Shown here piece by piece: positions 27,584-32,051 of a DNA stretch of 33,001 nucleotides. Location of the stretch: NCBI GenBank assembly GCA_027365145.1, contig DAHXOA010000110.1:1-33001 (forward strand), given 5' to 3'. The notes under the pieces were generated by a model that had not been told where the DNA came from, ran no database searches, and worked only from the letters and a program-made list of their open reading frames with translations. The position numbers and the translations under genes are program-made. Numbering within the stretch: the stretch's first letter is position 1; each line of letters starts with the position of its first letter. Origin of the DNA: Acidimicrobiaceae bacterium. GTDB taxonomy: Bacteria; Actinomycetota; Acidimicrobiia; Acidimicrobiales; RAAP-2.

Positions 27584-28531
27584 TCAGGGTGGCGACGCCA
27601 CGGCGATCCGGAGCGCACGCCGGACGTGGTGGACCCCGAACCCGACCGATCGATAGAGCGCCAGAGCGGGTTCGTTGTCCGCCTCGACGTGGAGCATGGC
27701 GACCCGTGCCCCTCGGTGGTGGAGTGATGCGAGCCCGGCATCGAGGAGTGCACGGCCGAGGCCCTGCCCGTGGAGCCGGGGGTCGACGAAGATGACGTAG
27801 ATCTCCCCGAGGGGAGGAGTGGTCCCTGGGTGGATCTTCGTCCAACACGAGGCCCCTACGGCGTCACCGTCGGCAAGCACGAGGAAGCCCTGCGGATCGA
27901 ACCAGTCCTCCTCCTCCCGGGAACGGACCTCATCCACTGTCCAGTGCCCCTGCTCAGGATGGTTGGCGAAGGCGCGATTGTTCGCGGCCACCCAGGCCTC
28001 CTCGTCGAGGCCGGGACGGAAGGCCCGTGCCGGCGCACCGGGGCCCTGTCGTGCGTCTAGAACCGGAAGGGGACGGCGCAGTTCGACGAGCCGGCGCTCG
28101 GTCCATGGCAGGGCAGCCGGGGCGATGGCTTCCAGAGCTGGACCGCCGACGGGCTGCCACAGCATGGCGACGGTCGCACCGTTCCGGCGCACGCCGGCGC
28201 ACGCCTCGGCGACGAGCCGGGCGACAGTCGAAGGCGGGAGCTCCGAGGCGGCGGGTGCCACGACCTCGATCGTCCAGACCGCCTCTGGACCGGTGGAATC
28301 GGCGGGGCCGACACCCACGGCGGCAGCAGCGAGGTGTCCGTCCACCGCCGTCCGCAGCGCAGCGATGCCACAAGGGGCTCCGGACCCAGCCTGGAGCCGA
28401 AGTCGTGGCCCCTCGCTCAGCAGGTCGCCGTCCGCCGCCGCGGTGTGGGTCGCCGCCAATGCCAGCGTCTCTTCGGAACGCGAGGGCGTTGCCTCGGCAA
28501 AGGATTCGATCACCATCGGGACGGCATCCAT
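27584..28531 (-). CDS. mshD: Mycothiol synthase-like GNAT acetyltransferase
   Basis: FRPGLDEEAWVAANNRAFANHPEQGHWTVDEVRSREEEDWFDPQGFLVLADGDAVGASCWTKIHP...GEIYVIFVDPRLHGQGLGRALLDAGLASLHHRGARVAMLHVEADNEPALALYRSVGFGVHH matches the MshD C-terminal GNAT pattern. Confidence 0.88.
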   Translation of the reverse strand: MDAVPMVIESFAEATPSRSEETLALAATHTAAADGDLLSEGPRLRLQAGSGAPCGIAALRTAVDGHLAAAAVGVGPADSTGPEAVWTIEVVAPAASELPPSTVARLVAEACAGVRRNGATVAMLWQPVGGPALEAIAPAALPWTERRLVELRRPLPVLDARQGPGAPARAFRPGLDEEAWVAANNRAFANHPEQGHWTVDEVRSREEEDWFDPQGFLVLADGDAVGASCWTKIHPGTTPPLGEIYVIFVDPRLHGQGLGRALLDAGLASLHHRGARVAMLHVEADNEPALALYRSVGFGVHHVRRALRIAVASPP

Positions 28532-28564
28532 ATCGGCTCCGAGGCTACCGGTAGTGTCGGCCTC

Positions 28565-29245
28565 GTGACCGCGTCCCCCGAGCTCACCCGGCGTGCTCGT
28601 ATCGTCCGGTCCCGGCTGGCGAAGCGGTATCCCGGCACGACCGAGGACCTCTGTGCGCTCGACCATGCCGACCCGTTCCAGCTGGTCGAGGCCACGATCC
28701 TGTCGGCCCAGTGCACCGACGTCCGGGTGAACCAGGTGACGCCGGGGCTCTTCGCCCGGTATCCCGACGCGGTGGCGCTGGCCGGGGCCGATCCCGAGAC
28801 CGTCGAGGCCCTCATCCGCCCGACCGGCTTCTATCGGGCCAAGACCCGCCACCTCCTCGGGATGGCCCGGCGGGTGGTCGAAGGTTTCGGCGGTGAGATC
28901 CCCTCGCGGATGGAAGACCTGGTGACGCTGCCCGGGGTCGGACGCAAGACGGCCAACGTCGTGCGCAGTGTCGGGTTCGGCCTCCCGGGCCTGCCGGTCG
29001 ACACCCACGTCGGTCGGCTGGCGCGGCGACTCGGTCTCACGACGGCGACGGATCCCGTCCGCGTGGAGGAAGACCTGGGCCGTCTCGTACCGCCGCGGGA
29101 ACGGGGTGTCTTCAGTCTGCGGCTGATCGAGCACGGTCGGGCGGTCTGCCGGGCCCGCCGCCCGGCATGCGACCAGTGCGTCCTGTCCGACGTCTGCCCG
29201 TCGTGTCCGCCCGTCGTGTCCGCCCGTGGCGCCTGCCGGACGTGA
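28565..29245 (+). CDS. nth: Endonuclease III
   Basis: GTG at 28565; LVEATILSAQCTDVRVNQVTP, HhH-GPD LVTLPGVGRKTANVVRSVGFGLPGLPVDTHVGRLARRLGL, [4Fe-4S] motif C-x6-C-x2-C-x5-C (CRARRPACDQCVLSDVC). Confidence 0.96.
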   Translation: MTASPELTRRARIVRSRLAKRYPGTTEDLCALDHADPFQLVEATILSAQCTDVRVNQVTPGLFARYPDAVALAGADPETVEALIRPTGFYRAKTRHLLGMARRVVEGFGGEIPSRMEDLVTLPGVGRKTANVVRSVGFGLPGLPVDTHVGRLARRLGLTTATDPVRVEEDLGRLVPPRERGVFSLRLIEHGRAVCRARRPACDQCVLSDVCPSCPPVVSARGACRT

Positions 29246-29542
29246 CCGGCGGATGTGAACCGAGAAGAGCCCCGACGACTACCGAAGAGCCCCGGTGGCG
29301 GCAGCTGAACCCAGGGCGAGGCGTCCCAGAAGTGGTCGGTACGGCGACGGGCTCTCGCCGGCGCACATGAGATACTTGCACATGGAGTGAAATACATCAA
29401 CGGACGGAAAAATTTCCGCGTGGAGGGGCGTTCTGATTGGAACAAAGCGTCAAAACGTGCTGTTGTAGAGGTCACTCGGAACCGGTTCCCGCCACCTGGT
29501 TCCGAAGAGCGGTGTCCGGGATCCGCCGCCCGGCCCGCTCGC

Positions 29543-29572
29543 GCGAAGGCGCCCCTTCGGGGGCGCCTTCGC
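29543..29572 (+). terminator. Strong perfect hairpin with UUCG tetraloop
   Basis: gcgaaggcgcccc-ttcg-ggggcgccttcgc: perfect 13-bp stem. No U-tract after it, so the terminator role is inferred. Confidence 0.7.
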
Positions 29573-29658
29573 CGCGTCCGGGGCTCGCTCGTCCGGTCGG
29601 AGCCCTCGTCGACGAGCATCCCTTCTCCGGCTCGGGGGGTGGCGCGGTACCGTGAGGC

Positions 29659-29964
29659 ATGGTCATCAAGCGCTCGGTGTCACTGTCGGACTCGGTGGCA
29701 CTGGCGGTGGAGCAGGCGGCGAAAGAGGACGGCGTCTCCTTCAGTGCCTGGTTGTCGGCCGCCGCCGAGCGGCAGCTCGTGTTGCGGGCGGGGCTCCGGG
29801 GCGTCGCCGAGTGGGAGCGGGCGGAGGGAGCACTCACGCCTGAGGAGATCGCCGAGGGAGAGGCACTGCTCGGTCGGCTCTTGTCGGGGGTGGCCGCAAA
29901 GGTGCGTCCGGGCGTCGCGTCCATGGTGCGACCGGGTGCCGGGGTGAAGACGAGGCGACGGTGA
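29659..29964 (+). CDS. Ribbon-helix-helix (CopG/VapB-like) protein
   Basis: MVIKRSVSLSDSVALAVEQAAKEDGVSFSAWLSAAAERQLVLR is an RHH pattern; GTGA overlap with a PIN-like partner. Confidence 0.8.
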   Translation: MVIKRSVSLSDSVALAVEQAAKEDGVSFSAWLSAAAERQLVLRAGLRGVAEWERAEGALTPEEIAEGEALLGRLLSGVAAKVRPGVASMVRPGAGVKTRRR

Positions 29965-30392
29965 GCGATCAGGGTCCGTCGCACCCGGCGCCGGACCGGG
30001 CCCACCGGCGCTATGGACTGGTCTACGGGCCGGCCGCCCTCCAGGCGGCGGCCCGGGGGGACCGGCTGGTGTGGGCGCTCCACCGTGCTGCGCTCGACCA
30101 GGGGTTTGTCCCGGTGGTCCCGGCGGTGGTCGTGCTCGACGCAGTCCGGGTCGTCGGGGACGATCCCCACCTCGCCCGGTTCCTCCTGGGAACAGAGATC
30201 GAGCCGCTCGACGGCACCCACGCCTTCGACCTGGGCGTCGTGGCCCACGCGGCCGGAACCGACAGCCCGGCCACGATCGCTGTGGTCGAGTGTGCGGCCC
30301 GGCGGACGGTGGCGGCGGTCACGGCGCGTTCCCCGGGGACGGCCGAGTTGGCCGGAGTGCTCGGTCACGACCTCGTGCTCCACCCGATCTGA
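29961..30392 (+). CDS. PIN-domain-like protein, apparently degenerate at the catalytic acidic positions
   Basis: YGLVYGPAALQAAARGDRLVWALHRAALDQGFVPVVPAVVVLDAVRVVGDDPHLARFLLGTEIEPLD...VVECAARRTVAAVTARSPGTAELAGVLGHDLVLHPI resembles actinobacterial VapC-type PIN proteins as I recall them; adjacent to an RHH gene. Confidence 0.7.
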   Translation: MSDQGPSHPAPDRAHRRYGLVYGPAALQAAARGDRLVWALHRAALDQGFVPVVPAVVVLDAVRVVGDDPHLARFLLGTEIEPLDGTHAFDLGVVAHAAGTDSPATIAVVECAARRTVAAVTARSPGTAELAGVLGHDLVLHPI

Positions 30393-30460: not shown

Positions 30461-30688
30461 TCAGGCCCGGCGGCGCTGACCTGGTCCCGGGACCGAGCGG
30501 GTCAGGCGAGTGAGGCGCCGGTGGGCGCCGGCCAGGGCACGCTCGACAGCGAAGAGCTCGGCGGCGCGCTCGTCGTCGCCGGCCGAACGGGCGCGCTCCG
30601 CATGGGCGGTGACCCGCCGGACGAGGTCGTCGAGACCGGTGGCGATGGAGGAGAGTTCTGCGGTGCCCGGGTCCACGAGCCCGATCAT
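30461..30688 (-). CDS. Small conserved-looking hypothetical protein (75 aa)
   Basis: MIGLVDPGTAELSSIATGLDDLVRRVTAHAERARSAGDDERAAELFAVERALAGAHRRLTRLTRSV: helical, charge-patterned, not low-complexity; fills the gap between a convergent stop and a divergent hisD. Confidence 0.65.
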   Translation of the reverse strand: MIGLVDPGTAELSSIATGLDDLVRRVTAHAERARSAGDDERAAELFAVERALAGAHRRLTRLTRSVPGPGQRRRA

Positions 30689-30761: not shown

Positions 30762-32051
30762 ATGGCTCTCGAACGTCTCGACCTCCGCCGTTTCCGGGGC
30801 GATCTCGCCTCGGTGCTCCCGCCCCCGGTGGACGAGCAGGAGCGGTCGTCGGCGGCGGTGGCATCGATCATCGCCCAAGTGCGTGCGGGAGGTGACCAGG
30901 CGCTCGTGGATCTGACCTCCCGGTTCGACGGCGTGGCGCTCGACGGGATCGAGGTTCCGACTGGAGAGGTGCGAGGCGCGCTCGACCGGATCGCCGCGCC
31001 GGTGCGCGACGCGCTCGAGCTGGCGTACCGGAGGATCACCGCCTACCACACCCACGAGGCGTCCGGGGCCGTCGCCGACTTCCACTCCGACGGGGTCGTC
31101 GTGAGAGAGCTGGTGCGGCCCGTGGCGCGCGCCGGCTGCTACGCGCCGGGCGGCCGGGCCAGGTACCCCTCCACGGTGCTGATGTGCGCGGCACCGGCGC
31201 GGGCCGCCGGCGTGGGGGAGATCGTCTTGTGCGTGCCACCGGGGCCGGACGGCACCGTAGACGATGCCTCGCTGGCCGCCGCTGCCATCGCCGGGGTCGA
31301 CCGGGTGTTCCGCGTCGGTGGTGCCCAGGCGATCGCCGCCATGGCCTTCGGCACGGAGACGATTCCTGCCGTCGACGTCGTCGTGGGGCCGGGGAACCGG
31401 TTCGTGGCCGAGGCCAAGCGCCAGCTCTCCGGGGTCGTGGGCGTCGCGTCGGCCTTTGCCGGGCCCTCCGAGGTGGTGGTGGTGGCCGGCCCCGACACGC
31501 CGGTGGCACTGGTCGCCATCGACCTCGTGGTCCAGGCCGAGCACGGGCCCGACGGACAGGCGTGGCTGGTCACGTGGTCGCCGGAGCTGGCCGACGCCGT
31601 CGACGCCGAGATCGACCGGGTCGTCGCCGGCTCGGCTCGCCGGGCCGATCTCGAGGCGACCTTCCGCTCCGGCGGGTACGCCGTCGTCGTCGACGACCTG
31701 GCCCAGGCCCTGGCCGTGGCGAACGTCGTGGCCCCCGAGCACCTGGAGCTGCTCTTCGACGGCGCTGAGGACGCCCTGGACGGCGTCCCGTCGGCGGGTG
31801 CCGTCTTCCTCGGTCGCAACGCCCCGGCCAGCGTCGGTGACTACCTGGCCGGACCGAACCACGTGCTCCCCACCAACCGGACCGCACGGTTCGCCAGCCC
31901 GCTCCGGGTAGACGACTTCCGTCGGCACCTCCACGCCGTGTCCTTGGACCGTGCCGCGCTCGACCTGCTCGGTCCGGCAGTGGTGACGCTGGCGGAGACC
32001 GAGGGGCTGAGCGCCCATGCCGAATCGGTCCGTGCCCGGTGGGCCCCGTGA
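30762..32051 (+). CDS. hisD: Histidinol dehydrogenase
   Basis: GCYAPGGRARYPSTVLMCAAPARAAGV, FRVGGAQAIAAMAFGTETIPAVDVVVGPGNRFVAEAKRQLSG, GPSEVVVVA, QAEHGPDGQAWLVT, PEHLEL, LPTNRTARFASPL. Confidence 0.96.
   Translation: MALERLDLRRFRGDLASVLPPPVDEQERSSAAVASIIAQVRAGGDQALVDLTSRFDGVALDGIEVPTGEVRGALDRIAAPVRDALELAYRRITAYHTHEASGAVADFHSDGVVVRELVRPVARAGCYAPGGRARYPSTVLMCAAPARAAGVGEIVLCVPPGPDGTVDDASLAAAAIAGVDRVFRVGGAQAIAAMAFGTETIPAVDVVVGPGNRFVAEAKRQLSGVVGVASAFAGPSEVVVVAGPDTPVALVAIDLVVQAEHGPDGQAWLVTWSPELADAVDAEIDRVVAGSARRADLEATFRSGGYAVVVDDLAQALAVANVVAPEHLELLFDGAEDALDGVPSAGAVFLGRNAPASVGDYLAGPNHVLPTNRTARFASPLRVDDFRRHLHAVSLDRAALDLLGPAVVTLAETEGLSAHAESVRARWAP

Follow-up and report, generated by a model that had tools for sequence, protein, structure and literature searches.

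VapBC toxin-antitoxin (TA) modules with a ribbon-helix-helix (RHH) antitoxin, such as FitAB of Neisseria gonorrhoeae, VapBC2 of Rickettsia felis and the mycobacterial VapBC, are the closest described systems to a gene pair located in a 33,001-nucleotide stretch of Acidimicrobiaceae DNA. This stretch, referred to below as the window, is contig C27 of a 1.95-Mb draft genome that is 74% complete. The pair has in common with these modules the antitoxin-toxin order, a short overlap of the two genes, an RHH protein, a PIN-fold partner as judged by profile and, in canonical relatives and in subclade B (defined below), a paired-palindrome operator at the operon promoter. It is unlike them in that three of the four PIN ligands are replaced throughout the clade of the window, and in that the dead pair is single-copy, has a fixed chromosomal location and is accompanied by operator-like sites in housekeeping genes. 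The pair is probably a domesticated, detoxified VapBC module that acts as a DNA-binding complex with a small regulon, in which the dead PIN protein serves as scaffold or co-repressor.

The purpose and possible domestication of chromosomal TA modules is the subject of a long-running argument, and in 2009 it was already suspected that some PIN toxins are inactivated (PMC2701414). In Pseudomonas an inactive plasmid TA pair acts as a regulator: MtvT/MtvA of plasmid pPAD8 is an inactive type II TA whose complex autoregulates and binds other promoters (PMC11826091). The likeness to the pair described here lies in the use of a non-toxic TA pair as a regulator, a role that in our case is proposed from sequence. 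MtvT/MtvA is, however, a plasmid-borne single case with a MazE-like antitoxin fold, whereas the dead pair is chromosomal, of VapBC type and spread over 14 genera, and the cause of its predicted inactivity is, unlike that of MtvT/MtvA, genetically visible. An inactive PIN protein of eukaryotes, SMG5, has retained the PIN fold after losing catalytic acidic residues and works via partner binding; the pairing of the SMG5 and SMG6 PIN domains has been described (PMC12923823). Unlike the dead pair, SMG5 belongs to nonsense-mediated decay and has no DNA-binding partner. The literature searched, which left out most subscription papers, contained no description of a VapBC that is dead throughout a clade and has targets on the chromosome. 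Clade-wide loss of a PIN active site together with ongoing selection on both proteins provides a clean natural experiment, and the proposed reading brings explicit, testable DNA targets, parB among them. If it is true, the DNA-binding half of a VapBC can outlive toxicity and acquire a housekeeping regulon, and annotators are warned that PIN/VapC homology alone does not make a toxin.

An initial annotation, made by eye, had described two genes overlapping by GTGA and had related the second to PIN/VapC toxins. Both open reading frames (ORFs) are present as described, with the overlap at 29961-29964, and the PIN relationship is borne out. Alone, the window protein matches no family of Pfam, NCBIfam or PADLOC, and its PDB hits are not credible. 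When 296 genomes of the class were searched, however, relatives up to 43% identical to it were retrieved, many with the full motif (for example TYDAGALVAADR... DIVDATVV... VSSDADDL). Profile-profile comparison (hhalign) of 34 orthologues with 28 of these canonical relatives gave 99.9% probability (E 2.5e-32) over 123 columns. The Pfam PIN family is matched by 20 of the 28 canonical relatives (best 4.5e-8) and weakly by 10 of the 34 orthologues (best 9.8e-4), while a profile of the canonical relatives hit a single VapC among PDB sequences, and that weakly (5k8j, E 0.051). A structural model (AlphaFold, AF2), proposed in the annotation as a check, gave a mixed result: the strands and helices follow the PIN order, but confidence is low (pLDDT, the predicted local distance difference test, 57 overall and below 50 for residues 84-143, from a four-sequence alignment). 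Its Foldseek matches are mostly VapC, including the best PDB folds, but at E 0.085 for the best they carry little weight. Since the protein's own database matches are absent and the structural model is weak, its membership of the PIN superfamily is based on the profile comparisons; through its relatives we regard the relationship as firm.

The same annotation had proposed that the conserved acidic positions are substituted. This holds at three decisive positions (motifs I, III and IV) and fails at the fourth, where the motif II acid is kept. In the joint alignment, motif I is D in 28/28 canonical relatives and G in 34/34 orthologues (G23 in the window). Motif III is D in 26 of the 28 canonical proteins and A, G, T, S or V in every orthologue (T105), and motif IV is D or N in 27 of the 28 canonical proteins and R in all 34 orthologues (R123). 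The motif II column stays acidic: the window protein has D60 there and every orthologue has E or D, at a position where the canonical relatives mostly have Gln. An Asp neighbouring the motif III position is also kept in subclade B. By the replacement of three of its four metal-binding positions (D to G23, D to T105 and D to R123) the window protein is, judged on these residues, a PIN protein that is 'CATALYTICALLY DEAD', and the loss of the active site predicts a nontoxic protein. The catalytic substitutions are far from chance, being invariant over 13 genera.

Copies of the dead PIN gene occur in 37 of the 172 genomes of the window's family, one per genome and in 13 genera (E < 1e-22); the genomes are mostly drafts and are phylogenetically related. 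A strongly diverged dead RHH-PIN pair is found at the same nth-hisD site in a further genus (genome G316, L108:3434-4070), its PIN protein lacking the catalytic residues as well (YSTEAL, ISSKV). This gives a total of 38 genomes and 14 genera in which the nth-hisD site holds such a pair. A tree built from 55 proteins contains a branch with an SH-aLRT of 100 that separates the 29 dead proteins, without exception, from the 26 canonical relatives, including canonical copies from pair-bearing genomes. Within the dead clade, subclade A consists of the window's genus (g1), g160, g161 and G316, and subclade B of all other dead-pair genera. The 18 residues that are invariant in the PIN orthologues include two of the replaced catalytic ones, G23 and R123. 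The ORF is intact in all orthologues searched: none of the 37 has an internal stop or a frameshift, the sign by which plain pseudogenisation was to be recognised. Ratios of nonsynonymous to synonymous substitution (dN/dS), for which a survey across relatives had been suggested, were computed for 10-11 species pairs and range from 0.06 to 0.25 in the PIN gene and from 0.02 to 0.10 in the RHH gene; against the nearest genome, the window's own proteins give 0.246 and 0.055, respectively. The dead PIN protein and its RHH partner are both maintained by purifying selection. Clade-wide active-site loss, this selection, conserved synteny and an operator in most of the clade thus agree with the proposal that the gene is a retained non-nuclease PIN and not a decaying pseudogene. 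The role of regulator or co-repressor that was suggested with it may apply to the pair as well.

The window's RHH protein is 70-93% identical to the antitoxins of dead-PIN orthologues; with that of L003 (in genome G285), a canonical relative from the same order, it shares 69% identity. Its relatives show weak matches to RHH_1, RHH_5 and HicB in Pfam. The gene arrangement is that of a VapBC, with an upstream DNA-binding antitoxin that overlaps the PIN gene by GTGA and whose RHH-type sequence is common to canonical antitoxins. L003, and the canonical VapBC pairs that reside in the same genomes as dead pairs (L067-L072), belong to the same PIN and RHH families and have the same operator type, but have kept the catalytic Asp. 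The L003 pair is not located between nth and hisD.

Just before the RHH start, the promoters of subclade B have a common element, GGTRNYACYNNNGGTGYTACC, which consists of two 9-bp palindromes GGTRNYACC placed 12 bp apart. It is present at 0-1 mismatch in 27 of 31 promoters; the operator of G328, for instance, reads GGTAGCACTATGGGTGCTACC. Canonical active operons of the class have the same type of element at the same position (L003, GTAGTACCAGCGGTGCTACCGTGAGTCT-ATG), which identifies it as an ancestral VapB-type operator. In subclade A the operator is reduced to its promoter-proximal part. A remnant of this half-site is found in the window (Table 1) and the distal half-site is unrecognisable there. 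The window's genus appears to have lost much of its autoregulation by erosion of this kind.

Whole-genome scans showed that the paired palindrome is almost confined to pair-bearing genomes, where it recurs at the same places. Towards the 5' end of its coding region, a luciferase-like monooxygenase gene (PF00296) beside a thiolase carries an array of 2-4 half-sites that keep a 12-bp register (G000:C47:3705-4718, locus L234; G296:C80, L241; L151, L156, L164 and L166), and in G302 (L116:2595) a half-site array lies upstream of the same thiolase. Compared with shuffles, the monooxygenase arrays gave P <= 0.03 in each subclade-B genome tested; no half-site arrays were seen in the monooxygenase orthologues of the pair-less genomes G329 and G330. 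In the window's genus the half-sites of this gene are degenerate, both in G000 (GGTACTACC and GGTGCTACT, P 0.026) and in G296 (GGTGCTACC and AGTAGTACC, P 0.004), and g160 and g161 have single half-sites. A search of the window's subclade for exact double sites gave none. Near half-sites of the form GGT(A/G)CGACC at the monooxygenase start were discounted, since the encoded residues VRP account for them and a pair-less genome has them too.

A second recurrent site lies, in frame, in the variable linker of parB. This 21-bp paired palindrome, GGTANTACC-N3-GGTANTACC (e.g. L118:1601-1621, L117:2875-2895 and L150:7866-7886), occurs with at most 2 mismatches in 17 of 19 subclade-B genomes from 9 genera, and in none of 17 comparison genomes, five of subclade A among them. 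In the genera g158 and g164 the same palindrome also occurs in yidC, within the codons for the C-terminal tail and some 80 bp ahead of the stop codon (e.g. L150:3929-3949, L148:5283-5303). Two other explanations of these elements were examined. The parB element is not taken to be the parS site of ParB itself, because most of these genomes, whether or not they have the pair, contain near-canonical parS sites (0-2 mismatches) in the rsmG-parA interval; ParB itself therefore looks conventional. Conservation as a protein motif is an unlikely explanation of the parB and yidC elements, whose codons GGT-(A/G)NT-ACC encode variable residues (S, T, N, I, A). In the genes concerned, 54-91% of third positions are G or C, and when codons were shuffled synonymously with those of the site retained, a match as good as the observed one arose in just 0.2-8% of trials for 18 of 19 genomes. 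The palindrome in parB points to a DNA-level constraint within a segregation gene. The DNA-binding half of the pair probably controls a few genes.

These observations suggest the following mechanism. In an ancestor, a chromosomal vapBC between nth and hisD lost the metal-binding site of its toxin, as the sequences show. In RHH-type VapBC complexes such as FitAB, PIN dimers bridge RHH dimers (cited in PMC3384007). Given the VapBC and FitAB structures and the spacing of the sites, the working unit would be a VapBC heteromer in which RHH dimers read GGTRNYACC and PIN dimers bridge adjacent RHH dimers, allowing cooperative binding to half-sites 12 bp apart. From the position of the site, the complex would repress its own promoter via the ancestral operator in most of the clade. 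It very probably also acts at a handful of further sites, namely those in the monooxygenase gene and the linker of parB, joined in two genera by the one in the tail of yidC, and binding there might result in repression or road-blocking. In the S. flexneri VapBC, Arg64 of VapB fills the metal site (PMC3384007); the invariant Arg at motif IV may occupy that site from inside the PIN protein, much like the VapB Arg of active complexes. With autoregulation apparently eroded, the present targets in the window's own lineage are less certain; target half-sites are recognisable there in the monooxygenase gene alone. A more specific version of this model, which we offer tentatively, is that the detoxified VapBC forms an origin-region DNA-binding complex at parB, yidC (in some genera) and the monooxygenase array. 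The dead PIN would there be the bridging scaffold, and the complex would couple expression or organisation of the segregation locus to its own level.

Several points weigh against domestication as a regulator. The parts of the model that concern binding, expression and toxicity are inferred from sequence data. Because the genomes with the pair are related to one another, the joint presence of pair and sites partly reflects one shared history, and most of the extra sites lie within coding sequence instead of promoters. Some metal-independent activity of the dead protein is conceivable. The pair is also retained in subclade A without the operator and parB sites, and the proposed targets are therefore not the whole reason for its retention. 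The common evolutionary history of pair and sites would also fit a different regulator that binds the GGTRNYACC sites outside the operon, the pair being merely one of its targets; as noted, the reader of the sites is itself deduced. We consider this improbable: canonical vapBC operons at unrelated loci have the same operator at the same distance from the start, which points to a VapB-type RHH protein as the reader, and the sites are almost absent where the pair is absent. An anti-addiction decoy, in which the dead pair neutralises or titrates components of related active VapBC modules by antitoxin cross-talk or mixed complexes and does not regulate genes, is likewise unlikely. Several pair-bearing genomes do carry canonical members of the same families (L067-L072) with a similar operator half-site, and protection against plasmid copies has been discussed for domesticated chromosomal TA modules (Makarova et al., PMC2701414). 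A decoy, however, predicts neither the fixed nth-hisD location over 14 genera nor the operator-like sites in the monooxygenase gene, parB and yidC, and in many pair-bearing genomes no canonical relative was detected.

The two remaining alternatives concern the PIN protein itself. It might still act as a toxin or ribonuclease by means of a non-canonical site, or be toxic without nuclease activity. The retained motif II acid and, in subclade B, the Asp adjacent to motif III could be read in this way, and sequence comparison cannot prove inactivity; yet three metal ligands are replaced, one of them by an invariant Arg in the metal site, and PIN nuclease activity needs the acidic cluster (PMC3384007), which makes residual toxicity very unlikely. 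Least credible of all, and close to dismissed, is ordinary pseudogenisation, with the RHH protein alone being of importance and the PIN gene decaying behind it. The PIN protein does evolve faster than its partner in the window's genus, and the G316 copy has diverged strongly. Against this stand the uninterrupted reading frames, dN/dS values well under 1 and invariant residues that include replaced catalytic positions. Translational coupling through GTGA or TGA overlaps is, moreover, retained in most copies.

The surroundings of the pair are summarised in Table 1. The gene order nth, RHH, PIN, ORF75 (a conserved 75-aa ORF), hisD is kept in orthologues as far as the contigs reach. ORF75 has no Pfam match, but by tblastn it is found at almost every orthologous locus and also in pair-less members of the family. 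In these the order nth, ORF75, hisD is unchanged, and the pair must therefore have entered, or have been lost from, a fixed chromosomal site. Searches of 72,556 plasmid records and 50,697 phage records gave no match to the pair, nor did the dead-PIN profile match viral contigs. With its location fixed between nth and hisD, the pair does not have the distribution of a mobile or plasmid addiction module.

Table 1. Coordinates in the window of the RHH-PIN pair and of the features around it.
Feature	Position	Strand	Evidence
nth, endonuclease III, fixed upstream neighbour	28334..29245	+	Pfam HhH-GPD 5.6e-23, EndIII_4Fe-2S
Candidate small RNA with three hairpins, the first loop C-rich, in the nth-RHH intergenic region	29478..29577	+	Conserved sequence and structure
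Remnant of promoter-proximal operator half-site, GGTACCGTGAGGC-ATG	29646..29658	+	Compared with L003 GCTACCGTGAGTCT-ATG and subclade-B GGTGCTACCAT
RHH (VapB-like) antitoxin / DNA-binding protein	29659..29964	+	ORF, 101 aa, ATG start
PIN/VapC-like protein, predicted catalytically dead	29961..30392	+	ORF, 143 aa, GTG start
ORF75, conserved 75-aa ORF, convergent with the PIN gene, next to hisD	30461..30688	-	tblastn
hisD, histidinol dehydrogenase, fixed downstream neighbour	30762..32051	+	Pfam Histidinol_dh 2.4e-142

The candidate small RNA upstream of the RHH gene had no match in an Rfam search. Many copies show a -10-like box of the TANNAT type; next come the nearly invariant GGAACCGGTTCCCGCCACCTGGTTCC, another hairpin (GAGCGG...GGGATCCGCCGCC...GCTC) and a terminal hairpin that is strong and GC-rich. 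Homologues were found at L032, L045, L063, L064, L066, L044, L058, L036 and other loci. The element is also present next to nth in family members that lack the pair, and in other families of the order; it is a constant neighbour of the pair and not part of it. Its three stems show compensatory changes, with seven pairs changed on both sides.
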